Shown here in pieces: positions 1-40,273 of a stretch of 55,999 bases of DNA. This DNA is from an uncultured Sphingopyxis sp. (lineage in GTDB: Bacteria; Pseudomonadota; Alphaproteobacteria; Sphingomonadales; Sphingomonadaceae), in assembly GCA_937873425.1 (NCBI GenBank), contig CALMYE010000234.1, forward strand, positions 1 to 55,999. The letters run 5' to 3'. The position numbers and the translations under genes were made by a program. The notes under the pieces are model-generated. The model searched no databases, had not been told where the DNA came from, and saw only the letters and a program-made list of their open reading frames with translations. How positions within the stretch are numbered: the first letter of the stretch is position 1; each line of letters begins with the position of its first letter.

Positions 1-1061
1 TCCGCCGCGATCCCCGCCTTCGCGAACATGTCCTCGCCGTCGGTTTCGGGGGCTTCGGCCGCGGCGGTGTCGTCGTTCGCCTTGGCCTTCTTGCGGTTGT
101 CGAAGCTCGACCAGACGGTGTTCCAGTCGCCGCGCGTCGCGCCCTTCGAATATTCGGTCGCGCGGGTTTCGAAGAAATTGGCGTGCTCGACGCCGTTCAA
201 GAGCGGGGCGAGCCAGGGGAGGGGGTGCTCGTCGATCATGTAGATCGGCTGGAAGCCGAGCTGCCCCAGCCGCCAGTCGGCGATGTAGCGGATGTAGCGC
301 TTGATCTCCTTGGGCGTCATGCCGGGGACGGGGCCCTGTTCGAACGCCAGGTCGATGAACGCATCCTCCAGCCGCACCGTCTTCTGGCAGGTGTCGATGA
401 TGTCTTCCTTCACCGCCTTGGTCAGGCAGCCGCGTTCCTTCACGAAGGTGTGGAACAGCTTGATGATGCCTTCGCAGTGCAGGCTTTCGTCGCGGATCGA
501 CCAGCTGACGATCTGGCCCATGCCCTTCATCTTGTTGAAGCGCGGGAAGTTCATCAGCATCGCGAAGCTGGCGAACAGCTGAAGCCCCTCGGTGAAGCCG
601 CCGAACATTGCGAGCGTGCGCGCGATATCCTCGTCGCTGTCGACGCCGAAGGTGCCCATATAGTCGTGCTTGGCGCGCATCTCGTCATATTCGAGGAACA
701 TGCCATATTCGCTCTCGGGCATGCCGATGGTGTCGAGCAGGTGGCTGTAGGCCGCGATGTGCACCGTTTCCATGTTGCTGAACGCGGTCAGCATCATCTT
801 GATCTCGGTCGGCTTGAACACGCGGCCGTATTTTTCGTGGTAGCAGTCCTGCACCTCGATGTCGGCCTGGGTGAAGAAGCGGAAGATCTGGGTGAGCAGA
901 TTGCGTTCATGGTCGCTGATCTTCTGCGCCCAGTCGCGGCAATCCTCGCCCAGCGGCACTTCCTCGGGCACCCAGTGGATCTGCTGCTGGCGCTTCCAGA
1001 AATCGAACGCCCAGGGATATTCGAAGGGCTTGTAGGTCTTGCGGGCTTCTAGAAGGGGCAT
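1..1061 (-). CDS. nrdB: Ribonucleoside-diphosphate reductase beta subunit, class Ia (3' end outside window)
   Basis: Small subunit of aerobic ribonucleotide reductase; it houses the di-iron centre and tyrosyl radical used by NrdA to make deoxynucleotides. Translation gives 353 codons without a stop, so only the last few residues are missing. The metal ligands of the family are visible: D67 in TQADIEV, E98 and H101 in ETVHIAAY, the later Glu in GGFTEG, and Glu/His in RDESLH. Y105, four residues after H101, fits the radical tyrosine, which supports class Ia. The ATG at 1061 starts MPLLEARKTYKPFEYPWAFDF with no N-terminal ATP-cone. It lies downstream of nrdA on the same strand, separated by a DUF559 gene. 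Confidence 0.95.
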   Translation of the reverse strand, partial: MPLLEARKTYKPFEYPWAFDFWKRQQQIHWVPEEVPLGEDCRDWAQKISDHERNLLTQIFRFFTQADIEVQDCYHEKYGRVFKPTEIKMMLTAFSNMETVHIAAYSHLLDTIGMPESEYGMFLEYDEMRAKHDYMGTFGVDSDEDIARTLAMFGGFTEGLQLFASFAMLMNFPRFNKMKGMGQIVSWSIRDESLHCEGIIKLFHTFVKERGCLTKAVKEDIIDTCQKTVRLEDAFIDLAFEQGPVPGMTPKEIKRYIRYIADWRLGQLGFQPIYMIDEHPLPWLAPLLNGVEHANFFETRATEYSKGATRGDWNTVWSSFDNRKKAKANDDTAAAEAPETDGEDMFAKAGIAA

Positions 1062-1089
1062 CGTGGACTCCAGACTGGCATTTCTTACT

Positions 1090-1227
1090 CCTCTCCCACC
1101 GGGAGAGGAAGGGGCCCAAGGCGTCAGCCTTGGGAAGGTGAGGGTGTTCGGCGGCCGGGTGCAGGCGGTTCGTCGCCCTCACCCTTCCGCGACTGCGTCG
1201 CTCCTTCCCTCTCCCGGAGGGAGAGGG
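1090..1227. repeat. Two GC-rich dyads (CTCTCCC family) between nrdB and the DUF559 gene
   Basis: CCTCTCCC at 1090-1097 faces GGGAGAGG at 1101-1108, and CCCTCTCCC at 1207-1215 faces GGGAGAGGG at 1219-1227. Both are tight stem-loops with three-base loops. The second overlaps the end of the DUF559 gene. No T-tract follows, so a simple terminator is unlikely; they look like dispersed extragenic palindromes. Confidence 0.6.
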
Positions 1228-1558
1228 AGATTTGGGTCATGACGCCTTCGGTGTTGGCGAGGACGTCATTGTTCCAGAAACGCAGGACGGCATAGCCTTC
1301 GCCTTCGAGGAAGGCGGTGCGTTTGGCGTCATAGGCCTGTTGTTCGGCATGCTGGCCGCCATCGACTTCGATAACCAGCTTGGCGCCGTGGGAGGCGAAG
1401 TCGGCGATATAAGGGCCGAAGGGAACCTGTTTGCGGAAGTGATAGCCGGGAAAGTTTTCGCGGAGGACGCGCCACAGGACACGCTCGGCGTTGGTCATTT
1501 GCCGCCGCAGAGCGCGGGCTCGCGGAACAGCATGCGCGGATAAGGACAGGCGCTTCAT
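1124..1558 (-). CDS. DUF559 (very-short-patch-repair-endonuclease-like) protein
   Basis: A 144-aa protein starting MKRLSLSAHAVPRARALRRQ. It carries the DUF559 signature: a basic N-terminus, then NAERVLWRVLRE, FRKQVPFGPYIADFA and LVIEVDGGQH, a PD-(D/E)XK-like core with the acidic residues and ExDGGQH. Family members are Vsr-like nuclease folds of unknown biological role. An in-frame extension to 1759 exists, but its sequence is proline/arginine-rich and runs through the GC dyads, so the ATG at 1558 is preferred. It lies between nrdA and nrdB, co-oriented, bordered on both sides by dyads, which suggests later insertion into an nrdAB unit. Confidence 0.8.
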   Translation of the reverse strand: MKRLSLSAHAVPRARALRRQMTNAERVLWRVLRENFPGYHFRKQVPFGPYIADFASHGAKLVIEVDGGQHAEQQAYDAKRTAFLEGEGYAVLRFWNNDVLANTEGVMTQISLSLREREGATQSRKGEGDEPPAPGRRTPSPSQG

Positions 1559-1569
1559 GGCCAAGCTCC

Positions 1570-1719
1570 CCCTCCCCCTTGTGGGGAGGGCCGGGGTGGG
1601 GGCGCGGCGCGTCTGCGCCGCATGAGAATCCAGGCGAAGGCCCGCGACGGCGCGAGTCTTAATGGGTTCGCAGACGCGAACCCGCCCCCCTCCTTGATCC
1701 TCCCCCACAAGGGGGGAGG
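1570..1719. repeat. Two GC-rich dyads (CCTCCCC family) between the DUF559 gene and nrdA
   Basis: CCCTCCCC at 1570-1577 pairs with GGGGAGGG at 1583-1590; CCTCCCCC at 1699-1706 pairs with GGGGGAGG at 1712-1719. They bracket a 110-base stretch with no credible gene of its own. They resemble extragenic palindromic repeats more than intrinsic terminators because no T-run follows. Confidence 0.55.
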
Positions 1720-1740
1720 GGGTGAGGGACGCCGGATTTG

Positions 1741-3690
1741 TTACTGACAAGCCAGACATTCGTCATAATCGGTCGTTTGCAACTCATACACCGGGGCTTC
1801 CGCGGTGTTGTCGGCCTCGACCCCGCCCGCGAAGCCGGCGCGCTGCACCGATTTGGACCGCAGGTAATAGAGCGACTTGATGCCCAGTTCCCACGCGCGG
1901 TAGTGGAGCATCAGCAGGTCCCACTTCTCGACGTCGGCCGGGATGAACAGGTTCAGCGACGCCGCCTGGTCGATATAGGGTGTGCGGTCGGCGGCGAGTT
2001 CGAGGAGCCAGCGCTGGTCGATCTCGAAGCTGGTCTTGAACACGTCCTTCTCGTCCTGCGTAAGGAAGTCGAGGTGCTGGACGCTGCCGCCCTTTTCGAG
2101 GATCGAATTCCAGATCGCGTCGCTGTTCTTCGCCTTGTCGACGAGCAGCGCCTCCAGATGCGGGTTCTTGACCGCGAAGCTGCCCGACAGCGTCTTGTGC
2201 GTGTAGATGTTGGCCGGGATCGGCTCGATGCACGCGCTGGTGCCGCCGCAGATGATCGAGATCGACGCGGTCGGCGCGATCGCCATCTTGCAGCTGAAGC
2301 GCTCCATCACCCCCTGATCGGCGGCGTCGGGGCAGGGGCCGCGTTCCTTGGCGAGCAGCATCGACGCCTGGTCGACCTGCGCGCGGATATGCTTGAAGAT
2401 GCGCAGGTTCGACGATTTCGCCATCGCGCCCTCGAACGGCAGGCCGCGCGCCTGGAGGAAGCTGTGGAAGCCCATCACGCCGAGCCCGACCGAGCGTTCG
2501 CGCGACGCGCTGTATTTGGCGCGCGCCATCTCGTCGGGCGCGCGGTCGATATAGTCCTGCAGGACGTTGTCGAGCATGCGCATGACATCCTCGATGAACG
2601 CCTTGTCGCCGTTCCACTCGTCCCAGGTTTCGAGGTTGAGCGACGAGAGGCAGCAGACAGCGGTGCGGTCGTTGCCCAGATGGTCGCGGCCCGTCGGCAG
2701 GGTGATCTCGCTGCACAGGTTCGAGGTGGTGACCTTCAGCCCCAGGTCGCGGTGATGCTTGGGCATCATGCGGTTCACCTGGTCGATGAAGATGATATAG
2801 GGCTCGCCGGTCGCGAGGCGCGTCTCGACCAGCTTCTGGAACAGGGTGCGCGCATCGACCGAGCCGCGCACGCTCCGGTCCTTCGGCGAACGAAGGTTGA
2901 ATTCGGTCCCGTCGCGCACCGCTTCCATGAACTCGTCGGTGATGAGGACGCCGTGGTGCAGGTTCAATGCCTTGCGGTTGAAGTCGCCCGAGGGCTTCCT
3001 CACCTCGAGGAACTCCTCGATCTCGGGATGCGAGATGTCGAGGTAGCAGGCGGCCGAACCGCGGCGCAGCGACCCTTGCGAAATCGCGAGCGTCAGGCTG
3101 TCCATCACGCGGACGAAGGGGATGATGCCGCTGGTCTTGCCGTTGAGGCCGACCGGCTCGCCGATGCCGCGGACATTGCCCCAATAGGTGCCGATGCCGC
3201 CGCCGCGCGAGGCGAGCCAGACATTCTCGTTCCAGGTGCCGACGATGCCCTCAAGGCTGTCGTCGACCGAATTGAGGTAGCAGCTGATCGGCAGGCCGCG
3301 CCCGGTGCCGCCGTTCGACAGCACGGGGGTCGCGGGCATGAACCACAGCTTCGAGATATAGTCGTAGAGCCGCTGGGCGTGATCGGCGTCGTCGGCATAG
3401 GCCGAGGCGACGCGCGCGAAGAGATCCTGATAGGATTCGCCGGGGAGGAGATAGCGGTCCTCGAGCGTTTCCTTGCCGAAATCGGTGAGCAGCGCGTCGC
3501 GGCTCCTGTCCGTGACGACGTCGAAGCGGCGCACATGCACCTTGGGCTCGCCCGAATCGGCGAGCTTCGCGGGCGCCGATTCGCCCTTCGATTCGCGTCC
3601 CGATTCGTCCGCTCCCAAGCCTTCCGTCTTCGTCAGTTCAACCGTCGCCACGTCGCTCGTCTCCACCCGTTCCGTCTCGCGAAAATCCAT
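1741..3690 (-). CDS. nrdA: Ribonucleoside-diphosphate reductase alpha subunit, without ATP-cone
   Basis: Catalytic large subunit (649 aa). Active-site elements are clear: C137 in ISCYLNS, N324, C326 and E328 in TSNLCSEIT (thiyl radical site), the second redox Cys in AVCCLSSLNL near 346, and a C-terminal shuttle pair C645/C648 in ECLACQ. The N-terminal ~55 residues are a low-complexity acidic segment and the barrel begins directly with TDRSRDALLTDFGKETLEDRY, so the ATP-cone activity-regulation domain of E. coli NrdA (about 760 aa) is absent. The ATG at 3690 is the first start of the frame. NrdB follows on the same strand. Confidence 0.97.
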   Translation of the reverse strand: MDFRETERVETSDVATVELTKTEGLGADESGRESKGESAPAKLADSGEPKVHVRRFDVVTDRSRDALLTDFGKETLEDRYLLPGESYQDLFARVASAYADDADHAQRLYDYISKLWFMPATPVLSNGGTGRGLPISCYLNSVDDSLEGIVGTWNENVWLASRGGGIGTYWGNVRGIGEPVGLNGKTSGIIPFVRVMDSLTLAISQGSLRRGSAACYLDISHPEIEEFLEVRKPSGDFNRKALNLHHGVLITDEFMEAVRDGTEFNLRSPKDRSVRGSVDARTLFQKLVETRLATGEPYIIFIDQVNRMMPKHHRDLGLKVTTSNLCSEITLPTGRDHLGNDRTAVCCLSSLNLETWDEWNGDKAFIEDVMRMLDNVLQDYIDRAPDEMARAKYSASRERSVGLGVMGFHSFLQARGLPFEGAMAKSSNLRIFKHIRAQVDQASMLLAKERGPCPDAADQGVMERFSCKMAIAPTASISIICGGTSACIEPIPANIYTHKTLSGSFAVKNPHLEALLVDKAKNSDAIWNSILEKGGSVQHLDFLTQDEKDVFKTSFEIDQRWLLELAADRTPYIDQAASLNLFIPADVEKWDLLMLHYRAWELGIKSLYYLRSKSVQRAGFAGGVEADNTAEAPVYELQTTDYDECLACQ

Positions 3691-12517: not shown

Positions 12518-12717
12518 TGACCCATCCCAAAATCCAGCCCTGCAAATGCGGGAACGACGATCTTGCCATCTACGAATATGGCTATGGCTGGCAGCATGTC
12601 GAATGCGACGATTGCCACTACATGGGCCCTGCCCGGGGCTCGAAGCTGGGGGCCATCCGCGCCCATAACGAACGCATCCGCGCCCTCCCCGACGCATCGA
12701 AGGGAGAAGCGCTGTGA
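12517..12717 (+). CDS. Lar-like zinc-ribbon protein
   Basis: 66 aa, MTHPKIQPCKCGNDDLAIYE, with two Cys pairs (CKCG and CDDCHYMG) as in Lar/restriction-alleviation-type small phage proteins. A strong AGGAGG site precedes it. ATG 12517 is preferred to the adjacent GTG. The product may blunt host restriction, inferred only from family resemblance. Confidence 0.65.
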   Translation: MTHPKIQPCKCGNDDLAIYEYGYGWQHVECDDCHYMGPARGSKLGAIRAHNERIRALPDASKGEAL

Positions 12718-13271
12718 GCGGCGATCTGAAACCGTGTCCGTTCTGCGGGGGCGAGGCCGTTGCATGCTTCAACAAGCACTTCGGCGCGAAGCAGGAAATG
12801 CACTGGGTGCTCTGCCGAAACTGCCACGCGAGCCCCGGCGACCGCGGCTCAGAAAGTCTTGCCATCACCGCATGGAACACCCGCGCCGAACTCGCCTCGC
12901 TACGCTCCACAGAGGGGCGCAGCGGTGGGGCGGGATCGGTAATTGCCGACATGCGGGAAGTCCGCGACGGGTGCCTGTCCGAAGGAACGGGGCACGTCGA
13001 TATCGTCCGTTACATCGAAGAATGGGTTTCGCGTCTCGCCGCCCAACCCACCCCCGACGACGATGTGATCGGGAGGCTGGTCGAGGCGCTGGCGAACGCA
13101 CAATACGCGCTCGAATATTGGGACCGAGAGAGCGGCGTCTGGCTTAGGTCGCGAGTTGAAGGCGCTCGGCCCGGTTGGATGACCGGAACCCGCCGACGCG
13201 GCAAGGATGAGATCGCGCGCGCCCGCCGAGCCCTCGCCGACGCCCGAAAGGAGAATGACCGTGGTCGATGA
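12714..13271 (+). CDS. Lar family restriction-alleviation-type protein
   Basis: 185 aa from a GTG start overlapping the previous stop. The N-terminus is typical of the Lar family: LKPCPFCGGEAV, then CRNCHASPG and AITAWNTR. The extra C-terminal ~120 residues are helical and charged, with no known domain. Lar relieves type I restriction in E. coli prophage Rac; a similar role here is an inference. Confidence 0.75.
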   Translation: MSGDLKPCPFCGGEAVACFNKHFGAKQEMHWVLCRNCHASPGDRGSESLAITAWNTRAELASLRSTEGRSGGAGSVIADMREVRDGCLSEGTGHVDIVRYIEEWVSRLAAQPTPDDDVIGRLVEALANAQYALEYWDRESGVWLRSRVEGARPGWMTGTRRRGKDEIARARRALADARKENDRGR

Positions 13272-14644: not shown

Positions 14645-14721
14645 CTAGGTGTAGCTTAGCCCGGTAAAGCGTCCGGTTTGGGTCCGGAAGATCGGGGGTT
14701 CAAATCCCTCCACCTAGACCA
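14645..14721 (+). tRNA. tRNA-Pro (anticodon TGG), CCA encoded
   Basis: Full cloverleaf: acceptor CTAGGTG/CACCTAG, D-stem GCTT/AAGC, anticodon stem TCCGG/CCGGA with loop TTTGGGT, T-arm TTCAAAT, discriminator A, then CCA. It reads CCA codons. Confidence 0.92.
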
Positions 14722-14729
14722 CCCCATGT

Positions 14730-14805
14730 AGCAGCGTAGTGTAGAGGCCAACACGACAGGTTCATACCCTGTAGATCACCGGTTCGAGTCCGGTCGCTGC
14801 AACCA
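14730..14805 (+). tRNA. tRNA-Met or tRNA-Ile2 (anticodon CAT), CCA encoded
   Basis: Acceptor AGCAGCG/CGCTGCA with an A-A mismatch at the first pair; D-stem GTGT/ACAC; anticodon stem ACAGG/CCTGT with loop TTCATAC; T-arm ACCGG/CCGGT; CCA present. Anticodon CAT may be elongator Met or the lysidine-modified Ile2; sequence alone does not decide. The unpaired first position also occurs in initiator tRNA. Confidence 0.85.
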
Positions 14806-14808
14806 ACC

Positions 14809-14882
14809 GCCGGTTTAGTTCAATGGTAGAACGTCCCCCTTGTAAGGTGAAGACGCGGGTTCGATTCCTGCCACCGGCTCCA
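14809..14882 (+). tRNA. tRNA-Thr (anticodon TGT), CCA encoded
   Basis: Acceptor GCCGGTT/CACCGGC (mismatch at the seventh pair), D-stem GTTC/GAAC, anticodon loop CTTGTAA, T-loop TTCGATT, discriminator T, CCA. It reads ACA codons. Confidence 0.88.
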
Positions 14883-14888
14883 TTCCAT

Positions 14889-14964
14889 CTTCCCGTGGCG
14901 CAGTGGAGAGCGCGTCGGTCTCCGACACCGAAGGTCGCTGGTTCAAATCCAGCCGGGAAGGCCA
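14889..14964 (+). tRNA. tRNA-Arg (anticodon CCG), CCA encoded
   Basis: Perfect acceptor CTTCCCG/CGGGAAG, D-stem GCGC/GCGC, anticodon stem TCGGT/ACCGA with loop CTCCGAC, T-stem GCTGG/CCAGC, discriminator G, CCA. Confidence 0.92.
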
Positions 14965-14966
14965 AC

Positions 14967-15042
14967 CTCGCCGAAGCTCAACTGGACGAGCGCCGGTCTA
15001 CGGAACCGGAGGTTGCAGGTTCGAAGCCTGCCGGGGGCGCCA
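14967..15042 (+). tRNA. tRNA-Arg (anticodon ACG) with damaged acceptor strand, CCA encoded
   Basis: The body is a normal tRNA-Arg(ACG): D-stem GCTC/GAGC, anticodon stem CCGGT/ACCGG with loop CTACGGA, T-stem GCAGG/CCTGC, 3' strand CGGGGGC, G73, CCA. The 5' acceptor strand CTCGCCG mispairs at positions 1 and 4, and position 8 is A rather than the usual T. It may be a decaying gene or one needing 5' editing. Confidence 0.7.
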
Positions 15043-15043
15043 A

Positions 15044-15135
15044 CGCAGCGTAGCTCAATGGTAGAGCGGTGGGCTTATACCCCATGACGGCCAGATTAGC
15101 CGACGATCCGGGTTCGACCCCCGGCGCTGCGTCCA
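15044..15135 (+). tRNA. tRNA with anticodon TAT and a long variable arm, CCA encoded
   Basis: Perfect acceptor CGCAGCG/CGCTGCG, T8 A9, D-stem GCTC/GAGC, anticodon stem GTGGG/CCCAT with loop CTTATAC (anticodon TAT, codon AUA), T-stem CCGGG/CCCGG, CCA. The variable region is 22 bases (15086-15107) with a four-pair stem CGGC/GCCG at 15088-15091 and 15099-15102, so it is class II. The discriminator is T, whereas Ile tRNAs carry A73 and a short variable loop. Amino-acid identity is therefore uncertain. Confidence 0.8.
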
Positions 15136-15136
15136 C

Positions 15137-15210
15137 TCCCGCTTCGTCTAATGGCAGGACGCCAGACTTTGACTCTGGAAATGGACGTTCGACCCGTCCA
15201 GCGGGAACCA
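15137..15210 (+). tRNA. tRNA-Gln (anticodon TTG), CCA encoded
   Basis: Acceptor TCCCGCT/AGCGGGA, D-stem GTCT/GGAC, anticodon stem CCAGA/TCTGG with loop CTTTGAC, T-stem GGACG/CGTCC, discriminator A, CCA. Reads CAA codons. Last gene of the cluster; it abuts the convergent spanin gene within two bases. Confidence 0.9.
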
Positions 15211-30972: not shown

Positions 30973-31256
30973 GCGATCGTCGGAAGCCTGAAGGGCCCCG
31001 CCAGCGCCTCTACTGCTAGCGGGACTTCGTGCGGGATTGTCGCATTGCCGACCGCAACGGCCTCCCGGTTGATATACCAGTGCGCAATAAGGAGGAGTTG
31101 AGCCTGCTCCAATTCTGGCGCGTATGCGTCATAGTTTTCACCGCAATATCGCTCCAGCCAAGCGAGCGAGGCAACGACATAGCCCATGATGAGCGCGTCC
31201 TCATCGTTGTGACGGACCCTGATCTGGTCTTTCGCCATTTGGAGAGAGACACTCAT
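30969..31256 (-). CDS. Phage gp6-like head-tail connector
   Basis: 95 aa. ALIMGYVVASLAWLERYCGE and LEQAQLLLIAHWYINREAVA match the gp6/gp15 connector family (DUF1788-like helices). It is positioned between the fibre and adaptor genes in standard head-tail-joining order. Confidence 0.82.
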   Translation of the reverse strand: MSVSLQMAKDQIRVRHNDEDALIMGYVVASLAWLERYCGENYDAYAPELEQAQLLLIAHWYINREAVAVGNATIPHEVPLAVEALAGPFRLPTIA

Positions 31257-32398
31257 TTCGCGGGCTTTGCGTCTCGGCCCCTGCGCGCGGCGATCATCCA
31301 GCCGCTGTCGGGGGTGTCGGGCTTAGCGTTGGTGTCCTTCGTGGTCACCCACAAACTGCCACCCCAAACTACCATGTCGCCCTTTCGGTAGGCGCGGCCT
31401 TCCTTGTAGGCTTCGCGGAAGATCGGGATGGGGAACTCCAGCTCGAAGCTGTGCATCGTGTCGCCGCGCAGAAACTTGAACTCAAGCGTCCGCTCATCGG
31501 TCTGCTCGATGTCGAAGTCGTCGAGAGTGAAGGTTGCGCCGGCGTCGCCGTCCTTACCGACGACAAGGCCAAGGTCATGCGTCCGACCGTCGCTGGTCGT
31601 CAGGACGAGATGCCCTTCCTTGTCGATCAGGGCGCCGGCAACGCCAACGCCATCGTCGCCTTTCTTCGGCTCCGGCAAGTCGCTGACCGCCTTCGCGATG
31701 CCGTCCGCGATCATCTTGCCGATCGCGTCCATGTCCGGCCCGATCGGGGCAGGGGCTTCGGGGACGGGAATTGCCTTGACCGCCTCGGGAAGTTGCTCGC
31801 TCACCGCTTGCTGTGTCAGTTCGTCGATCATCTCGCGAACAGCGTCCATGTCGACTTCGCGCGGCTCGACCATGACAGGCTCGGGGTCGGGCAGGGCGGC
31901 GACGGCCTTTTCGACTTCGGCACGAACCACGCCGGCCAGCCGCTCGGGATCAACGGGCAGGGGTTCCGCATCCTTGCCGACGACGCGGCCCAGCGCCTTC
32001 GCGATGCCGTCCTCGAAGGTTGCGACCAGATTTCCTTCGCGGTCGATCAGAAGGTCTTTGATGCCAAGCCCCTTTTCGCCTCGCTTGGGCTCGGGGAGCG
32101 CCGCTACGGCCTTATCGACCATCGCCTGCACTTCGGCATGGTCGAGGCTCTTTTCGTTCTGAGGGGTTGGGATTTCGGCAACTGCGGCGGCAACAGCCTC
32201 CGACACGATGGTCTTCATGCTGTCGGGGTCGAAGGGAGCCGGGATTTCGCGCTTCTCGACCGCGGCAAGGCGCTCGGTCAGATCACCGTTCGCATCCCGC
32301 AGCGCCTTGTTCTCGGCGATCAGCGGGGCGGTGGCTCGATCGACATAGGACCGCACCGATTCCAGCATGGCTTCGCCGAAGGCTTTACCGTCGAACAT
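31253..32398 (-). CDS. Putative head fibre with collagen-like GEKG repeats and a sugar-binding-type module
   Basis: 381 aa. An N-terminal coiled coil (about 30-50) is followed by two repeats of one unit, GEKGLGIKDLLIDREGNLV (about 108-126) and GDDGVGVAGALIDKEGHLV (248-266), each next to an ...AAVDKAVAALPEPK-type spacer. The C-terminus (about 328-370: FREAYKEGRAYRKGDMVVWG, GSLWVTTKDTNAKPDTPDSG) resembles a carbohydrate-binding module of the chitin-binding (CBM5/12) type. Position between portal and connector suggests a head-decoration fibre that binds host glycans; function inferred from domains. Confidence 0.6.
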   Translation of the reverse strand: MFDGKAFGEAMLESVRSYVDRATAPLIAENKALRDANGDLTERLAAVEKREIPAPFDPDSMKTIVSEAVAAAVAEIPTPQNEKSLDHAEVQAMVDKAVAALPEPKRGEKGLGIKDLLIDREGNLVATFEDGIAKALGRVVGKDAEPLPVDPERLAGVVRAEVEKAVAALPDPEPVMVEPREVDMDAVREMIDELTQQAVSEQLPEAVKAIPVPEAPAPIGPDMDAIGKMIADGIAKAVSDLPEPKKGDDGVGVAGALIDKEGHLVLTTSDGRTHDLGLVVGKDGDAGATFTLDDFDIEQTDERTLEFKFLRGDTMHSFELEFPIPIFREAYKEGRAYRKGDMVVWGGSLWVTTKDTNAKPDTPDSGWMIAARRGRDAKPAK

Positions 32399-33756
32399 CA
32401 GGAAAGCCCCTTCGTGAATACGAGAAGCGCCTTGGCGGCTTCCAGTTCCATCGCGTTGTCGTTCGCTGGCTCGGTGGGCGGCGCGGTGGCAGTGTCCTCC
32501 GCGAACGGGTCATCTTTCGCGTCGCGCTTGGCCAGTGCTTGAAGGCTGAAATCTTGCTGCTGGCGATAGACGCTATCGCCGCCTTCGACCGGCTTCAGGT
32601 CGATTCTCCGACGCGCCTCGTTCGGCGTCATCGTGTTGCGGCCCTTGTCGAGCATTTCCATCTGCGTCACGCCGTCCATGCGGAGCAGATTATCCAAGTC
32701 GAACTCGGTGCCCAGCTTTTCGCCGGTTCCTAGGCCCTCGTCGAGCAGCAGTTCGGCCGCCTCGATAAGCACCTGCAAACATTGGCTATAATATTCGACG
32801 TTTAGCGCCTGCACGTTGTTGTAGCTCGGCATGTCGCCGACGCCGATCTTGTAGGGCGGGACATGGAAAGTCGAGCAGACGACCTCCGCCGTCCACTTCA
32901 TCTGTTCGACCATCTGGGCATCGACGGGGTTGATCGTCAGCGCCTCGAATTTCATCCCGTCGCCGAGCACTGCGATCTTACCCGCGTTCTCGCCGGTATA
33001 TTTGGATTCCCACGTCTCTTTGAGGCGGGTCGCATTGTCGGGGTCGATGCGCCCCGGAGCGATTAGCAAGCCGCCCGGTTTCGACGCATTGGCAAAGAAG
33101 TTGGCGCTGTTTTCCTGAAGTTTCAGGCCCTGTGTCGCCGCGAGCCCGCAGGCGAAGATGGGCGAGAGACCAACCAGTGGATGGAAAAGGCAGTTGAAGC
33201 GATCATGAATGATCTCGCTGGCAGGGACCAGCACCTGATCTTCCTCGATGCCAGCAATGTTGTCGGTCGACAGTTGGTAATAGGCCGTCCCGTCAGGCGT
33301 CAGCATCGGCTTTGTGCGGCAAGGGTCGAGCACATAGAGACCGGCGACGACGTTGCGATTGTCGCGGCGTTTCAGGACGTAGGTGTTGCCACGCGCCAGC
33401 TTCGACAGCACCCACGATTCCCAGAACTGGATGCGCGTCTGGAATCCGTTCGGCTTGCGCATGACGCGCGAGTGCGTCGTGGAGCGCTCGACCTCGCTCC
33501 AGATGCCGTCCTTGTCCTGCTCGACCAGCTTCACGCGTAGCTTGGAAATGTCGCTGGCGATCAGCGTCATGCACGAAAAGACGGCATGGAATGCGAGGAC
33601 CGAATTCTGGTCGATAGTCACATTTTTTTGCCACGCACCAGCAAACGATTCCTTGATGATCGAATACCAGCCACCGCGCTGATCTAGCGGTGACAGGTTT
33701 GCTTTCTGGCGTGGCGCCAGACCAGCAGACAGGACGGTCAGCGCGCGCTCAAGCAC
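32398..33756 (-). CDS. Portal protein (HK97 family)
   Basis: 452 aa. Family features: TLIASDISKLRVKLVEQDKD, RIQFWESWVLSKLARGNTYV, VPASEIIHDRFNCLFHPLVG, ANASKPGGLLIAPGRIDPD and FHVPPYKIGVGDMPSYNNVQ. It forms the dodecamer through which DNA enters the head. It is unusually far from terminase: seven kb and the capsid and glycosyltransferase genes intervene. Confidence 0.93.
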   Translation of the reverse strand: MLERALTVLSAGLAPRQKANLSPLDQRGGWYSIIKESFAGAWQKNVTIDQNSVLAFHAVFSCMTLIASDISKLRVKLVEQDKDGIWSEVERSTTHSRVMRKPNGFQTRIQFWESWVLSKLARGNTYVLKRRDNRNVVAGLYVLDPCRTKPMLTPDGTAYYQLSTDNIAGIEEDQVLVPASEIIHDRFNCLFHPLVGLSPIFACGLAATQGLKLQENSANFFANASKPGGLLIAPGRIDPDNATRLKETWESKYTGENAGKIAVLGDGMKFEALTINPVDAQMVEQMKWTAEVVCSTFHVPPYKIGVGDMPSYNNVQALNVEYYSQCLQVLIEAAELLLDEGLGTGEKLGTEFDLDNLLRMDGVTQMEMLDKGRNTMTPNEARRRIDLKPVEGGDSVYRQQQDFSLQALAKRDAKDDPFAEDTATAPPTEPANDNAMELEAAKALLVFTKGLS

Positions 33757-33910
33757 GATAGACCCCTCGGCGGATCACCGCGGCGAAGGCGATGAAAGCG
33801 AGGCCGGCGGCGATTAGCGTCCACGCCGTGCCAACGAGCATGAAAATGCCGCCCAAGATCAGGCCCGCGCCGACTACGGCGATCAGCAGCATGGCGATGA
33901 CTTCGTTCAT
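33749..33910 (-). CDS. 53-aa two-TM membrane protein
   Basis: MNEVIAMLLIAVVGAGLILGGI-type sequence: two hydrophobic helices (about 5-24 and 27-44) and a short basic tail. ATG 33910 overlaps the glycosyltransferase stop, and it overlaps the portal start by eight bases. Membrane protein beside glycosyltransferases may anchor or export, but this is guesswork. Confidence 0.55.
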   Translation of the reverse strand: MNEVIAMLLIAVVGAGLILGGIFMLVGTAWTLIAAGLAFIAFAAVIRRGVYRA

Positions 33911-34623
33911 GCGGCCTCCATCATATCCATGCGGTAATGTTCGCGCGTGAAGGGATCGACCTTCGCGGCGTCCCAAGGTTTCAGCGAGCCCGGGAAGAAC
34001 AGGATGCGGGGAGGTGTCGCCAGCCTTTGCCGACGATAAGCGCCGCCGAACCAGTAAACGCCGTCGTTCTCGTCCCAGACCTTTTCTTTCGGCCCCAGCT
34101 TGTGCATCAGCCAGGCTTGATCGGACCCGCAAAAGAGGCTGCCCGATTCCAGCGCGGCTTCTTGATTAAAGTCCTCATAGACCTCAGGCCGACAACCGGC
34201 CTTCATCATGATCATGCTGCCGTTGTATGGACGGGTCCGAGTGGTCCCTTTGAACAAAACAAGGTCATCGTCGCGGTCAAACAAAGGATCGAGTGGCCCA
34301 CCGATCACCGCGTCGAGATCCATCGAAACGAACCGCTCGCCGAAAATGTCGGCAGCATCCCGGCGGAACATCGACAGGCGCCGGTAGCATTGGGGCCGGC
34401 CGTTCGACCAGCGCGGGTTCTTGATGTCCAGAAAGTCACCGGGCGGCGTGATGATTTCGATGCTCGGGTCGATCCCTTCGGGCATATCAGTGACGCAGCA
34501 GATGCGGTGCGGCATCGACAGATTGCGGCGGACGCCAGCAGCGGCGATGTTCACGTGATCTGCGACGTAGCGTGTGCGGGCCTGTTCCTGCTCCCACAGC
34601 CAGAAATGGATCGAGAGCATCAA
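33907..34623 (-). CDS. Glycosyltransferase, GT-A type with DLD motif
   Basis: 238 aa. VTDMPEGIDPSIEIITPP and FVSMDLDAVIGGPLDPLFDR show the DxD-type nucleotide-sugar motif (D102-L-D104) of GT-A transferases; MIMMKAG and SDQAWLMHKL follow as in GT8-like enzymes. Overlaps neighbours by four bases. One of three consecutive glycosyltransferases inside the head operon. Confidence 0.72.
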   Translation of the reverse strand: MMLSIHFWLWEQEQARTRYVADHVNIAAAGVRRNLSMPHRICCVTDMPEGIDPSIEIITPPGDFLDIKNPRWSNGRPQCYRRLSMFRRDAADIFGERFVSMDLDAVIGGPLDPLFDRDDDLVLFKGTTRTRPYNGSMIMMKAGCRPEVYEDFNQEAALESGSLFCGSDQAWLMHKLGPKEKVWDENDGVYWFGGAYRRQRLATPPRILFFPGSLKPWDAAKVDPFTREHYRMDMMEAA

Positions 34624-35222
34624 GCCGTTCCTTCCGTGCGGCGCTCGCCAATATGCCAGCAGATGTTCTCGTTGGGCCGCAGCGTCTCGATTTCCATCCG
34701 GCGCTTCATGTCGGACAGCAGTCGAACTCCATTTGAGGCGGCAAGCAGCTTGCCAGCGTCAGTGATCGACGGTGGCCCACCCCAATGCGTCACGCCGCGC
34801 TCCCATCCTTCAACATCAGGCGTCCAGTCGACAACTTTGCCCGAGGCCAAATTGCGCGGGTCGCAATATTCCCGCGGACCAGCCCGGCTCTTTCGCAGGC
34901 CCGTCAGCCGGACGCAGGGCGCTTCGACGTCAGGGATCGGCGCGACCCACTCCCAGTCGTTCTCAAGGTGCAGGATGCGCGTTGCCCCGCGCCTGACCGC
35001 TTCCTGCCATGCCATGCGGGCCGTCGCGCATCCGCCCTGCCGATTGGCTGAACGATAGACTGTCTCGAACCCGAACCTCGCGGCGATCTGCATGTTTCTG
35101 TCGTCGCTTGAAGCATCGTCAGCGTGCAGCAACAGGTGGCCGTTGTTATGAGCCGAAAAGCTTTCCAGCGTTCGCAGCGTATAATCGGCCCGATCGGCAG
35201 TGAGCAGACAGACAGCGATCAT
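34620..35222 (-). CDS. Glycosyltransferase, GT2-like
   Basis: 200 aa. MIAVCLLTADRADYTLRTLE and the acidic pocket LHLENDWEWV (E87, D89) resemble family 2 transferases; HADDASSDDRNMQIAARFGF also fits the N-terminal donor-binding half. It is short, so probably the catalytic core alone. Overlaps both neighbours. Confidence 0.65.
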   Translation of the reverse strand: MIAVCLLTADRADYTLRTLESFSAHNNGHLLLHADDASSDDRNMQIAARFGFETVYRSANRQGGCATARMAWQEAVRRGATRILHLENDWEWVAPIPDVEAPCVRLTGLRKSRAGPREYCDPRNLASGKVVDWTPDVEGWERGVTHWGGPPSITDAGKLLAASNGVRLLSDMKRRMEIETLRPNENICWHIGERRTEGTA

Positions 35223-35920
35223 GCGACCCGCTCGAAAGGATAGCTCATCGTCAGCGGTGGCCCGCCTTCGTGCCGGATCGTTTCCTGACGCTCCGCCTTT
35301 GCAACCGAGAACTCCGATGCCTTCCGGCCGAAGTCGGTCGTCGAAGCGTCCGCCACGATCTCGCGCGGAATGCGGACGAGCGGACTCTTGAGGGTAACGA
35401 CCCTATTTGCCAGCGCGGTAAGCCGGTCCCGAACGTCATAATCTGAGCCATAACAGCCGGCCCAACGCTCATCGAAACCGACAAAGCGATCGAACAGCCG
35501 CCGCGACACGAGCCAGCTATTCGGGTGTGGCTTGTAGGGCGTCATGTCGGGCGCATCGACGCGCGAGAATCGATAGACGTCCCATTCCGAAAGTGTCGAT
35601 TTCAAGACTTGCCGCAGCGTTTCCTCGGGGACCAGATGATCCATATCAGTGAAGAGCAGCCAGTCGGTCTTGGCATGGGCCGCGCAGACGTTGCGGGCGG
35701 CCATCCAGTTCCACGGCGTTTTCCGGGTGATCCGGAACAGCTTGTAGTCGAAGCCGGGATTAGCCTCGGGCGCTTCGATCATTTCCGGGCTGCAATCGTC
35801 GCAAACCAGATACTCGACATTCCGCCTGATCTTGTCCGGCATCGTGGCCAGGTTCTCGAACTGGCGCCGCAGCATCTCGGGATTGCGATAATAGGCGTTG
35901 ATGATCGAGACAGCCCTCAC
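35219..35920 (-). CDS. Glycosyltransferase family 2
   Basis: 233 aa from a GTG at 35920 that overlaps the methyltransferase stop. VSIINAYYRNPEMLRRQFEN opens the donor domain; TDWLLFTDMDHLVPEETL carries the DxD (D92-M-D94); FDERWAGCYGSDYDVRDRL is the acceptor loop, as in phage and bacterial GT2 enzymes. Expected to add a sugar to a lipid or protein acceptor. Confidence 0.78.
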   Translation of the reverse strand: MRAVSIINAYYRNPEMLRRQFENLATMPDKIRRNVEYLVCDDCSPEMIEAPEANPGFDYKLFRITRKTPWNWMAARNVCAAHAKTDWLLFTDMDHLVPEETLRQVLKSTLSEWDVYRFSRVDAPDMTPYKPHPNSWLVSRRLFDRFVGFDERWAGCYGSDYDVRDRLTALANRVVTLKSPLVRIPREIVADASTTDFGRKASEFSVAKAERQETIRHEGGPPLTMSYPFERVA

Positions 35921-36456
35921 GCTGCCCTCCAATATCGGCCCTTGGGCGAGGGCTCGACGATGACGATCTCACCGAGGATTTCGCGAGCCGCTTCCTTCAC
36001 ACCGTCCCAATTGGCGTCGTCACCAGCGATCAGGCCACCAGCTTTGACCTTGGGCTTCCATGCGAGCAGGTCGGCTTTGACGTTCTCGTAATCATGGGTG
36101 CCGTCGATGAAGAGGAAGTCGATGCTCCCATCCTCGAACGTTGCCGCGGCTTCGACCGAGGGCAGGGCGAGGACGTCGACGACCGATGCTACCGGCTTGA
36201 GATTCGCGCGCGCCTGCTGTTCGAGCGTCTTCACGTCCTCGCAGTCGCGGTGATTGGGCGAGCCTTGAAAGTGGTCGACCGTGACGAAGCGGATCGGCTT
36301 GCCGCTGTTGATGATCTCGACCCCGGCGAAGGCGGCTGACTTGCCCTTCCACGTTCCGATCTCGACTATCAGGCCATAGGGCAGGCTGTCGATGACCTCC
36401 TTGTAAAGCCCGATGAACGAGGCCCAACCTTGGACCTTGCTGTAATAGTGCTTCAT
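35917..36456 (-). CDS. Class I SAM-dependent methyltransferase
   Basis: 179 aa. YGLIVEIGTWKGKSAAFAGV (about 27-46) is motif I of Methyltransf_24-type enzymes; FVTVDHFQGSPNHR and the DFLFIDGTHDYENVKADLLA segment follow in the right order. The same fold occurs in enzymes that methylate surface sugars. Heads the glycosyltransferase run. Confidence 0.78.
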   Translation of the reverse strand: MKHYYSKVQGWASFIGLYKEVIDSLPYGLIVEIGTWKGKSAAFAGVEIINSGKPIRFVTVDHFQGSPNHRDCEDVKTLEQQARANLKPVASVVDVLALPSVEAAATFEDGSIDFLFIDGTHDYENVKADLLAWKPKVKAGGLIAGDDANWDGVKEAAREILGEIVIVEPSPKGRYWRAA

Positions 36457-36833
36457 GCAGGCACCAGTTCGTTCGGGGCCGGCGGCTTCGGATCGTCGCC
36501 CGTCTCACGGTCATCGTTGGGCGGGACGTAGAAGGTCGGCCACCCATCCTTCCAAGTCACTGTCGCACGCGCGGGCAGGGCGTTCATGAACCACGCCGCG
36601 AACAGGATCATCGCGGCGGTGGGCTTCACCTCACCAATGACGACATTGCCCTCGATCCTCATTTCCATGCTGACCAAGGCGTTGCCCTGAAAGCGGATTG
36701 CACCGTCCGCAAAGTCCAGTTCGATCAGTTCGCAATGAGCATGCGCCGATGCCTCCGCTGCGCTCGCGAAACTGGCGAGGCATTCGTCTAGACCGCGATG
36801 CTCGTAGCGGAGGGTGGCGACGATGCGGGCCAT
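36453..36833 (-). CDS. Phage protein of unknown function
   Basis: 126 aa, MARIVATLRYEHRGLDECLA. Alternating beta and helix content with an Ala-rich central helix (TAAMILFAAWFMNALPARAT). It overlaps the methyltransferase start by four bases. No recognised domain. Confidence 0.6.
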   Translation of the reverse strand: MARIVATLRYEHRGLDECLASFASAAEASAHAHCELIELDFADGAIRFQGNALVSMEMRIEGNVVIGEVKPTAAMILFAAWFMNALPARATVTWKDGWPTFYVPPNDDRETGDDPKPPAPNELVPA

Positions 36834-37015
36834 CAGTCGGCGAACCTTACGCGCTCACCGTCGATGACAAACGTCACGGTGATTTCGCCCATTTCATCGA
36901 CGCCATTTGACAACACCACGCGCGACTGCATTGGAAGCGGCGAGCCGTTGTCGTCGCACAACACGATTGCTTTGCCGCCGGGGACCGATGAAGCGGCGTC
37001 GATCTTGATCAGCAT
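36833..37015 (-). CDS. Small phage protein of unknown function
   Basis: 60 aa, MLIKIDAASSVPGGKAIVLC, beta-rich, ending GEITVTFVIDGERVRFAD. Starts at ATG 37015, two bases before the stop of the upstream gene, and ends one base into the next start. Could be a small decoration or assembly factor. Confidence 0.6.
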   Translation of the reverse strand: MLIKIDAASSVPGGKAIVLCDDNGSPLPMQSRVVLSNGVDEMGEITVTFVIDGERVRFAD

Positions 37016-37016
37016 T

Positions 37017-37331
37017 TCAGGCAGCCGCGATCCGCTGGCGCAAGGCGTCGGCATCCCAACCATTGAAGGGGCGCTTTCCTAGCTTGGCTGTGTATTCGGC
37101 GCGCAGGGCTGCGATGTCGCCGCCGGTCTGCTTGAGCGAGCCGCCTTCGACGCCGTTGTCGTCATGGTCCAGTTGTGGACGCCCGGCGCGCCTCTTTCCG
37201 ACCTTGGCCTTGCCGAGTGCTTGCAGCAAGCGCGCGCGCGGCCCATCGACCTTGCGAATGAGGTCACCCTCGGTCAACCGGCGGGTGCCGTATCGAAAGT
37301 CACCGATGGCGACCATATCCTTGTGAGCCAT
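37017..37331 (-). CDS. Small head protein with C-terminal HeH/LEM-like helices
   Basis: 104 aa from ATG 37331 (MAHKDMVAIGDFRYGTRRLT). The last 30 residues (LRAEYTAKLGKRPFNGWDAD, ALRQRIAA) resemble the helix-extended-helix DNA-binding motif found in phage head-closure-type proteins. The longer frame upstream crosses the capsid terminator and is not used. Confidence 0.6.
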   Translation of the reverse strand: MAHKDMVAIGDFRYGTRRLTEGDLIRKVDGPRARLLQALGKAKVGKRRAGRPQLDHDDNGVEGGSLKQTGGDIAALRAEYTAKLGKRPFNGWDADALRQRIAAA

Positions 37332-37384: not shown

Positions 37385-38833
37385 TCAGGTGTTGGTCGGG
37401 CCGCCCCATGCGGCGCCAGTCAGATAGGTCACGCCGGTATCGCGACGACGCGCCCAGTTGACGGTGCGTTCGGCGAGGAAGCCGACGCTGTTGGTCTGCC
37501 ACAGGCTGACCAGCGACGTGGCGTTGACATCGGCCACAGAGCTGCCCTGAAGCGAGCTGTCGAGCATTTCGAGCGAGGCCTCGCGGCTCATATCGACCGA
37601 AACGCCGCCTTCATCCGCGAAGTAGATGTCGGACGCGTTGACCAGCACGACGATGCTGCCCGACAGATAATTCGCGCCCGCATATTCCGACGTGATCACC
37701 GGCAGGCCGAAGAAGGTGCCGCCGTTCGCCGTCAGGCCGGGGAATTCCGGCTGACCGAGCGGGTTGACCATCATCGACAGCGCAAGGGCCAGGCCGGCGG
37801 GCATGATCCAGACGCCCGCCGACAGCGGGTTGTTCGCATCGACGAACTTCTGCATCAGCGACCGCACGTCGACACGGATGTCGTCCGCGTCGCCGGTGCC
37901 TTCGGCTGCGATCGAATCCGCGCCGAACGTGATCGACGCCGGCGAGACTCCGGCCGCCGCATCCTTCCCGGGATTGATGAAGTCGATGTCGAGGCGCTGG
38001 GCAAGCGCTTCCGCCAGCTGGTCACGGACGATCGCTTCGGCCGACGGCGAGCTGTCGCGCACCATCTCCATCGTCAGGACCGCGATGTTCGCGACCTTCA
38101 GGGGATCGAGCGTCGTGCGGCTGAAACCGAAGCTGGTCAGCGGCTTCGGTTTGCCTTCACCGACCCAGTGACCCTGACCGGGCTGGGTCTGGGTGATCAG
38201 CGGAACACGGAACGGCACCCGACGCAGCGACGGGATGCCGTTCGAGCCGAACCGGCCGATGATCGTCATCGGGCGCAGGAACTCGACGAAATCGGCGAAC
38301 GCGGACGATTCCGTCCCGACCAACGCTTCAGCCCAGTTGCCCGAGATGTTGGCGCCGGCGGGAACTTCCGCCTTCTCGATCTTGTCGAAGCCGCGGGTTT
38401 CCATGCCCTTGAGCACGGCCACGGTTTCCGACTGATCGCCGTAGCGCGCAGCCGCGAAACTGACCGCGCCGCCGAGCGAGCCCTTGGCGATGCCGAAGCT
38501 CTTGACGAGTCGGGCGAACGCGATGCCCTTTTCGAGCTTCTGCTCGGCCTTGACCTGGATGCGCTCGCCGGCACGCGATTTGCCGGCATCTTCCGCGTTC
38601 TGGCCTTCGGCGGGGACCGCCTTTTCCTTTGCGCGGTTTTCCGCGGTGCGGAGCCGTTCAAGGTGCTTGTCGATCGAGGCGATCTCCGCCTCGTTGTTGT
38701 CGAAGTCCTCCGACTGCTGATCGTCGAGGGTGGAGCCATCCTCCGCCGACTTCTGCATAATCGCGTCATTGGCAGCTACGAGCGACGCTCGCTTTGCCTC
38801 ATACGCGGTGATCTGTTCCGCAATGGTAGCCAT
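37385..38833 (-). CDS. Major capsid protein (HK97 fold) with delta domain
   Basis: 482 aa. An N-terminal coiled-coil delta (scaffold-like) domain (about 1-110, AEQITAYEAKRASLVAANDA) is followed by the HK97 shell domain: SFAAARYGDQSETVAVLKGM, RRVPFRVPLITQTQPGQGHW, LDIDFINPGK, GVWIMPAGLALALSMMVNPL and FFGLPVITSEYAGA. The delta domain is removed by the protease encoded just upstream. It has its own conserved leader and downstream terminator. Confidence 0.95.
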   Translation of the reverse strand: MATIAEQITAYEAKRASLVAANDAIMQKSAEDGSTLDDQQSEDFDNNEAEIASIDKHLERLRTAENRAKEKAVPAEGQNAEDAGKSRAGERIQVKAEQKLEKGIAFARLVKSFGIAKGSLGGAVSFAAARYGDQSETVAVLKGMETRGFDKIEKAEVPAGANISGNWAEALVGTESSAFADFVEFLRPMTIIGRFGSNGIPSLRRVPFRVPLITQTQPGQGHWVGEGKPKPLTSFGFSRTTLDPLKVANIAVLTMEMVRDSSPSAEAIVRDQLAEALAQRLDIDFINPGKDAAAGVSPASITFGADSIAAEGTGDADDIRVDVRSLMQKFVDANNPLSAGVWIMPAGLALALSMMVNPLGQPEFPGLTANGGTFFGLPVITSEYAGANYLSGSIVVLVNASDIYFADEGGVSVDMSREASLEMLDSSLQGSSVADVNATSLVSLWQTNSVGFLAERTVNWARRRDTGVTYLTGAAWGGPTNT

Positions 38834-39535: not shown

Positions 39536-40144
39536 TTAGGAGTTTTCAGCCCTCACCTTCGCCCAACGGGCGAGGTTGTCTTTGGACCGCCTTTCTCGCA
39601 GCTCCGGCGTGTAGGACGCCTTCACCGATTGGCTCAATTTTCGCCTTTGGTTCTCATTGAGCGGCGGATGTTGGTAGCCTTCAGCTTTCCGCTTCACCCA
39701 ATTCGCCTTGATCGCAGCGGACATTTTCGCCCTGATTTCTGGGTCGGCCCATTGCGTTTTCGCGCCGACTGCCATTTTTGCCAAATGGCTGTCAGCCTTC
39801 GGCTTCCCTCGCCGCGATTCCGACATGCGGCGCCGAGAAGCTTCGCTGTGCTTCACCCCCAACGGCGATCCGGCAACCTTAGCGACGTTAAACTCGCACC
39901 CTTGGTCGATATAGAATTGCTCTCTCGCCAAGAGCGTATCTCGTCCGCACCGCTCCAAAACGCGGAAGCAGAATGCCTCCTCACCGTGCTTGTTCCACGA
40001 ATGCTGAAGATGGGTGCTGTGATGCTTGCCGTGGCGCAGTTTATGGCGATGAGAATGCCAACGCTGCGTAAAGTTTAGCGCGCTTCCAACGTAACGCTTG
40101 CCGTTGACGAGGTTCACGATTTCATAGATGCCGGAATCAGCCAT
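39536..40144 (-). CDS. GIY-YIG homing endonuclease with NUMOD-type repeats
   Basis: 202 aa from ATG 40144. The GIY-YIG core is IYEIVNLVNGKRYVGSA followed by FTQRWHSHRHKL and a catalytic EQFYIDQG; several basic repeats follow (HSEASRRRMSESRRGKPK, SAAIKANWVKRKAEGYQH), as in SegF-like/group I intron-type nucleases. A free-standing mobile gene inserted between terL and the protease gene; it is 130 bases from terL. Confidence 0.9.
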   Translation of the reverse strand: MADSGIYEIVNLVNGKRYVGSALNFTQRWHSHRHKLRHGKHHSTHLQHSWNKHGEEAFCFRVLERCGRDTLLAREQFYIDQGCEFNVAKVAGSPLGVKHSEASRRRMSESRRGKPKADSHLAKMAVGAKTQWADPEIRAKMSAAIKANWVKRKAEGYQHPPLNENQRRKLSQSVKASYTPELRERRSKDNLARWAKVRAENS

Positions 40145-40273
40145 AACGCCTCCAACTAGGTGCTTGTGGTCAGGGCCGGGTTGAGGGTGCAACCTCTTCT
40201 CGGCCCGCTTTCAATCTACACATTTCTGTCAGAATACCAAGCCATCAGGCCCGATTTTGCATCAGGGTTTCTC

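Follow-up and report, generated by a model that had tools for sequence, protein, structure and literature searches.

A cluster of overlapping, co-directional genes for three glycosyltransferases and an S-adenosylmethionine (SAM) methyltransferase lies between the capsid and portal genes in a 55,999-nucleotide stretch of DNA from an uncultured Sphingopyxis sp. (contig CALMYE010000234.1, positions 1–55,999; hereafter the window). We propose that the cluster is probably a late-expressed, exchangeable virion-glycosylation cassette of a tailed-phage prophage, because its enzymes form a toolkit like that of phage Che8, because it is placed within the head operon, and because its genes are chained to the portal gene. 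Its four enzymes, in the order in which they are read, are the following.

35917–36456, minus strand: MT, a SAM methyltransferase of the sugar O-methyltransferase type (Methyltransf_24, 1.5e-22; RMNT_CmcI, 1.2e-6; TylF, 1.5e-4)
35219–35932, minus strand: GTa, a family-2 glycosyltransferase (GT2; Glycos_transf_2, E 1.4e-11)
34620–35222, minus strand: GTb, a predicted GT-A fold glycosyltransferase without a family match (AlphaFold2 (AF2) model and Foldseek)
33907–34623, minus strand: GTc, a GT8-like glycosyltransferase and the conserved anchor of the cassette (phrog_1962 'glycosyltransferase', 3.2e-4; AF2 and Foldseek)

GTa belongs to GT2 by the Pfam criterion, with a Glycos_transf_2 score of 45 bits against a cut-off of 23.3. 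For MT, RMNT_CmcI scores above its cut-off (28.9 versus 23.2 bits) and TylF below (21.6 versus 23). No match to GTb was found in Pfam, PHROGs, or NCBIfam; its confident AF2 model (predicted local distance difference test (pLDDT) 90.8, from an 11-row alignment) matches GT-A enzymes in Foldseek, i.e. POMGnT1 (1.4e-7), SpsA (3.5e-6), and TarS (1.4e-5), and GTb is accordingly modeled as a GT-A glycosyltransferase. The AF2 model of GTc (pLDDT 89.6, 25-row alignment) is closest to glycogenin-1 (7.1e-8), LgtC (1.2e-7), and GlyE, with template modeling scores to the query of 0.55–0.64, and Asp102 and Asp104 of its D-x-D motif are invariant in all 25 aligned sequences. Since no curated GT8 model in Pfam or NCBIfam matched at E 0.1, we refer to GTc as GT8-like rather than GT8. 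Hydropathy analysis of MT, GTa, GTb, and GTc revealed no strongly hydrophobic segment; the three glycosyltransferases are soluble GT-A enzymes, GTb and GTc by their models. The likely starts, as read from the sequence, are GTG 35920 for GTa (the other candidate being TTG 35932) and ATG 34620 for GTc (the other being TTG 34623). The ratio of nonsynonymous to synonymous substitution rates for GTc is 0.10–0.15 in six pairs, versus 0.16 for the capsid pair tested, and GTc is under purifying selection. Many GTc copies in relatives (e.g. L066, 10001–10921, and L015, 596–1534) carry an extra C-terminal stretch of about 65–75 residues, 'CLVLGYAPSVW...VIASPEAAEHWP', that is absent from the window copy.

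The minus-strand order is terS, terL, a GIY-YIG gene, protease, capsid, g104, g60, g126, MT, GTa, GTb, GTc, TM2, portal, ser381, and then the genes for the head-tail adaptor, head closure, tail completion, tail terminator, and major tail protein. From g60 through to the portal gene every neighboring pair overlaps by 1–8 bases, and MT, GTa, GTb, and GTc are translationally chained to the portal. This arrangement bears on whether the enzymes might instead glycosylate or hypermodify phage DNA, which we regard as extremely improbable. Glycosyltransferases of phages that act on DNA do exist (by a title cited in PMC12619734), and the PHROG family of MT is named 'DNA methyltransferase'; in Pfam, however, MT is of the sugar O-methyltransferase type, and it is the portal, rather than any replication gene, to which the genes are chained. 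No base-hypermodification family (thymidylate-synthase-like, hydroxymethylase) occurs in the Pfam-scanned frames (three sets of 10, 10, and 46, with some overlap, which together cover part of the window frames), which fits the preference of an earlier sequence-only reading of the window against early DNA modification.

Relatives of GTc were collected by alignment searches (17 genome loci and, for viral contigs, the best 80 of 272 confirmed). The 102 GTc loci considered, the window included, are not dereplicated; 13 repeats or window copies (L001, L003–L006, L008, L010–L013, L016, L018, and L114) were left out of them, and the pairs L020/L039, L021/L093, L023/L097, and L085/L086 are by look the same or near-identical places. 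The portal starts no more than 800 bases after GTc in 55 of the 102 loci, and the placement of GTc in the head operon is thus more than chance. GTc follows the portal and stands shortly before the adaptor gene g95 in a further six loci, and otherwise lies after the portal in seven. The capsid side is visible in 45 of the 55; the distance between GTc and g104 or capsid ranges there from approximately 0 to 4.7 kilobases (kb) and is at most 300 bases in 13 of the 45 (gaps were measured on longest frames, such that start positions and slightly negative gaps are approximate). Three of 80 genomes of the genus, those of the window, G035, and G094, contain a close portal (E below 1e-200); G035 also carries GTc, and G094 is, judging by position, probably the genome of the Sphingopyxis sp. 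PET50 prophage (L019). GTa, GTc, and g95 of one genome of the genus are identical to those of S. flava, and the closest named GTc matches, among the matches listed, are from Sphingopyxis.

A complementary sample fetched with the portal (the best 80 contigs; L020 and L036 are outside these counts) contains GTc in 24 contigs, 19 before the portal and five after, and no GTc in the stretch examined of the other 56. The capsid side is visible in 52 of these 56; in 39 of them no more than 25 bases separate the capsid-side gene from the portal, and in the remaining 13 the gap is 61 to 1284 bases. The cassette is therefore accessory in an otherwise stable operon: most contigs of this sample without GTc show nearly adjoining flanking genes. 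The cultured phages JLK-2012 and SP-016 have the same gene order without the cassette.

The genes between the capsid side and GTc differ among relatives. Relatives of GTa occur in 29 of the 102 loci, those of MT in six and those of GTb in three. Looking for the cluster at the same site in other phages, as the sequence-only reading had advised, finds GTc recurring before the portal, although the exact gene set of the window is rare, since MT and GTb relatives are present in few GTc loci. Twenty inner frames of relatives were classified with Pfam: eight resemble methyltransferases (among them one fusion to GT-D and two matches that are weak or below cut-off), one each is GT-D, weakly MptE-like, HNH, phosphoribosyltransferase-like, and collagen-like, and seven have no match. 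The window and L019 are 90% identical in the capsid, 86% in g95, 86% in GTc, and 35% in GTa; L019 has no match to the window MT or GTb and carries other genes at their position. The two are not near-identical phages, and mosaicism in general contributes to these differences, because their proteases are 51% and their TerL proteins 23% identical. Between L019 and the S. flava prophage (L020), identity is 59% in the capsid and 40% in g104, yet the two share two inner proteins at 94%–95% identity, at different junctions. One of these, cl7, resembles phosphoribosyltransferases in its L036 copy; the other, cl12, has a weak likeness to methyltransferases in L019.

Alternatively, the head-gene junctions might simply be cargo-tolerant sites, with homing endonucleases moving in sugar genes of varied or no common virion role. 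Frames of HNH type directly precede GTc in seven loci (a cluster of eight frames; Pfam was run on three of the seven), the phosphoribosyltransferase-like and collagen-like inner frames are suggestive of mixed cargo, the same junction holds other cargo in a Rhizobium phage, and the phages are mosaic in general, as the capsid, protease, and TerL identities of the window and L019 illustrate. We nevertheless consider this explanation distinctly improbable, in that many contigs have one and the same glycosyltransferase family, under purifying selection, at their head junctions, eight of the 20 inner frames are methyltransferase-like, and GTa is present in 29 loci. The other cargo is an SGNH hydrolase gene at the capsid-portal junction of Rhizobium phage RHph_X2_26 (L237, 5618–6832).

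Many minimal cassettes consist of one gene for a protein of about 92 residues ('ITNLGPVP.GMTF') directly before GTc (e.g. L022, 9726–10004; L094, 9723–10013; and L102, 9709–9999). No member of this family was found in the 56 portal contigs without GTc, and the protein is possibly a partner or acceptor. Hhalign revealed no relation to the 160-, 190-, and 300-residue cassette proteins or to the GTc tail. The 160-residue family (L042, 2220–2702, and homologs) is frequent in the longer cassettes, its cluster comprising 23 short frames; it has no Pfam match and ends in a 'DGEVFIGNQGNHRLAMAQVLGL'-like stretch that looks ParB/Srx-like.

The genes flanking the four enzymes in the window are the following.

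37385–38833, minus strand: major capsid protein, left neighbor and candidate acceptor (Phage_capsid, 1.3e-18; phrog_617, 2.4e-99)
37017–37331, minus strand: g104, a small protein and the capsid-side marker in relatives, present in loci with and without GTc (phrog_29995)
36833–37015, minus strand: g60, a small protein with few relatives (phrog_1046, for a longer frame)
36453–36833, minus strand: g126, without a Pfam or PHROG match, 75% identical in L019
33749–33910, minus strand: TM2, a 53-residue protein with two transmembrane (TM) segments (ATG 33910; phrog_4810, 2.9e-8; hydropathy peak 2.73)
32398–33756, minus strand: portal protein, right neighbor (Phage_portal, 2e-81)
31253–32398, minus strand: ser381, a head protein beside the portal and candidate acceptor (phrog_1289, 3.1e-37, and the C-terminal part of the portal PHROG phrog_2271; collagen-like repeats in 47 of 79 relatives with GTc and in 37 of 50 without)

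The sequence-only reading had described three glycosyltransferases, a SAM methyltransferase, and a two-TM gene, overlapping and co-directional, between capsid and portal. All of this holds except the membership of the two-TM gene in the cluster; g104, g60, and g126 are added between capsid and MT. The actual two-TM gene runs from ATG 33910 to 33749, the 127-residue frame 34132–33749 being over-called. It adjoins the portal in L138 and L154, which lack GTc, as well as in L020 and L036, where GTc sits elsewhere. TM2 is portal-linked and probably not part of the sugar cassette, since it is present in relatives without GTc. A role for TM2 as the flippase or anchor of the cassette is rejected on account of its presence beside the portal at loci without an adjacent GTc. 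The same reading had noted a portal displaced by seven kb from terminase. The distance from the end of terL to the start of the portal gene is 6.5 kb; the argument from displacement fails, because terL-protease-capsid-portal is the usual order of the family also without glycosyltransferases and does not point to an insertion.

The frames at 3–3690, at the left end of the window, we take to be host nrdB and nrdA, and the phage genes are for this reason probably a prophage; the window spans the whole contig, on which no terminal repeat was found. The gene listed above between terL and the prohead protease encodes a GIY-YIG/NUMOD3 homing-type endonuclease (39536–40192, minus strand). Elsewhere in the window, seven tRNA genes (Pro, Met, Thr, Arg, Arg, Ile, and Gln) form a tight row at 14645–15210 on the plus strand, opposite to the late operon; a Lar-like restriction alleviation protein is encoded at 12714–13271 on the plus strand (phrog_599), and PF14354 is matched by two window frames.

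The sequence-only reading had left the choice between a glycan on the virion and a change of host surface sugars at release, of which the former is the better supported, given the chaining to the portal, a head-operon position seen again in many contigs, the solubility of the enzymes, and the Che8-like toolkit. If the enzymes altered exopolysaccharide or the core of lipopolysaccharide (LPS), either at a late stage of infection or in a lysogen, they might block superinfection or the rebinding of progeny. Such a role would suit the resemblance of GTc to LgtC, an LPS galactosyltransferase, besides that to glycogenin, and phage glycosyltransferases that change the host serotype are known (PMC12619734). 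It seems unlikely here, because Pfam and hydropathy reveal no flippase, polymerase, or membrane glycosyltransferase in the cluster, the sole TM gene being portal-linked; because GTc follows head genes in 55, 6, and 7 of the 102 loci, as described above; and because phage D3, while carrying sugar genes in its head operon, has a serotype-type wzy gene at a separate place, close to its integrase gene.

We infer instead a pathway of virion glycosylation, in which GTc, GTa, and GTb would use activated sugars of the host to make, in the cytoplasm, a short glycan on one of the structural proteins of the phage, either ahead of virion assembly or in the course of it, with MT O-methylating one sugar of that glycan. 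Translational chaining to the portal would ensure co-expression with the head. As the conserved member, GTc would probably catalyze the first, acceptor-recognizing step, and inner genes that differ between phages would change the glycan displayed on the particle; the benefit may be shielding or altered surface contact. The closest precedent is Che8. Excerpts of PMC12363180 state that virion proteins of Che8, Corndog, and Myrna are glycosylated, and that glycosylation of the capsid requires gp110 in Che8 and gp38 in Corndog; a passage of PMC12619734 places the glycans on the C-terminal ends of the subunits of capsid and tail tube. The assignment of virion glycosylation to Che8 gp108–gp110 is that of Freeman et al. 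2023, as cited in passages of PMC12363180, PMC12619734, PMC11256854, and PMC13313380. By Pfam, gp108–gp110 comprise GT2 plus Methyltransf_24/TylF, GT2, and GT25 domains.

Several observations weigh against virion glycosylation. Among the GTc loci, 25 of 102 are unplaced and nine are placed on one side only, following g104 or capsid; a portal re-search of 36 such records found a portal in 11. Seven of the 20 inner frames have no Pfam match, and some of the others are not sugar enzymes. No acceptor signal emerged, the Ser/Thr content of capsid and ser381 being alike with and without GTc, and capsid alignment columns (66 sequences with GTc versus 51 without) differ in both directions, in a comparison uncontrolled for descent. 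The Che8 genes are located near the genome end, outside the head genes; GTc has no similarity to Che8 gp110, and GTb matches gp110 at E 0.11 (BLASTP).

With less conviction, we suggest as a possibility that alphaproteobacterial and other phages share a serotype-like head-glycan locus, with a GT8-like starter, an exchangeable interior, and a cassette moving between head-operon junctions, perhaps helped by HNH endonucleases. If so, virion surface glycans would diversify as bacterial O-antigens do, sugar-coated phage heads may be common, also in phages of Gram-negative bacteria, and selection for different head glycans in antibody-free settings would become testable. The literature portions consulted tie phage virion glycosylation to a few mycobacteriophages. 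Among the matches listed in open-licence literature (on virion glycosylation by phage glycosyltransferases, Sphingomonas phages with glycosyltransferases, sugar genes in prophage structural modules, the nearest phages, PAJU2, and D3), we recognized no report of this cassette in this phage group.

Several known systems resemble the cluster in part. Directly before its head-closure gene, Tetraselmis viridis virus S20 encodes homologs of all three glycosyltransferases, arranged as in the window (45% identity for GTa, 42% for GTb, and 38% for GTc); its cassette likewise contains methyltransferases, but the set is larger, the head-gene order is different, and the junction is another one. In Pseudomonas phages PAJU2 and D3, the head-to-tail operon includes genes for methyltransferases and for sialyltransferase-like proteins, at other junctions than in the window. 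PAJU2 resembles the window in its capsid-portal order and TM2 and differs in that its sugar-type genes follow head closure; the label 'structural protein' of its ORF010 is the depositors' own and unchecked. Profiles of GTa, GTb, and GTc found no match in the PAJU2 region or in four proteins of the D3 sugar region. In D3 the wzy gene lies near the lysis and integrase genes, apart from the sugar genes of the head operon. Serotype-conversion genes of temperate phages are similar in being phage-encoded enzymes acting on sugars; their target is the O-antigen, and membrane proteins are usually among their products. Cystovirus glycans are host-derived and lipid-linked, according to an excerpt of PMC8402811.

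The likeness to Che8 is that of an overlapping set combining GT2, Methyltransf_24/TylF, and further glycosyltransferases in a temperate tailed phage. The third Che8 enzyme is a GT25 in place of the GT8-like GTc, and sequence similarity between members is weak or absent. The window cluster would thus work like the Che8 system without being a member of it, because GTc lacks sequence resemblance to gp110. It differs from the reported Che8 case in lying within the head operon, in having a GT8-like anchor and an exchangeable interior, and in its host group.

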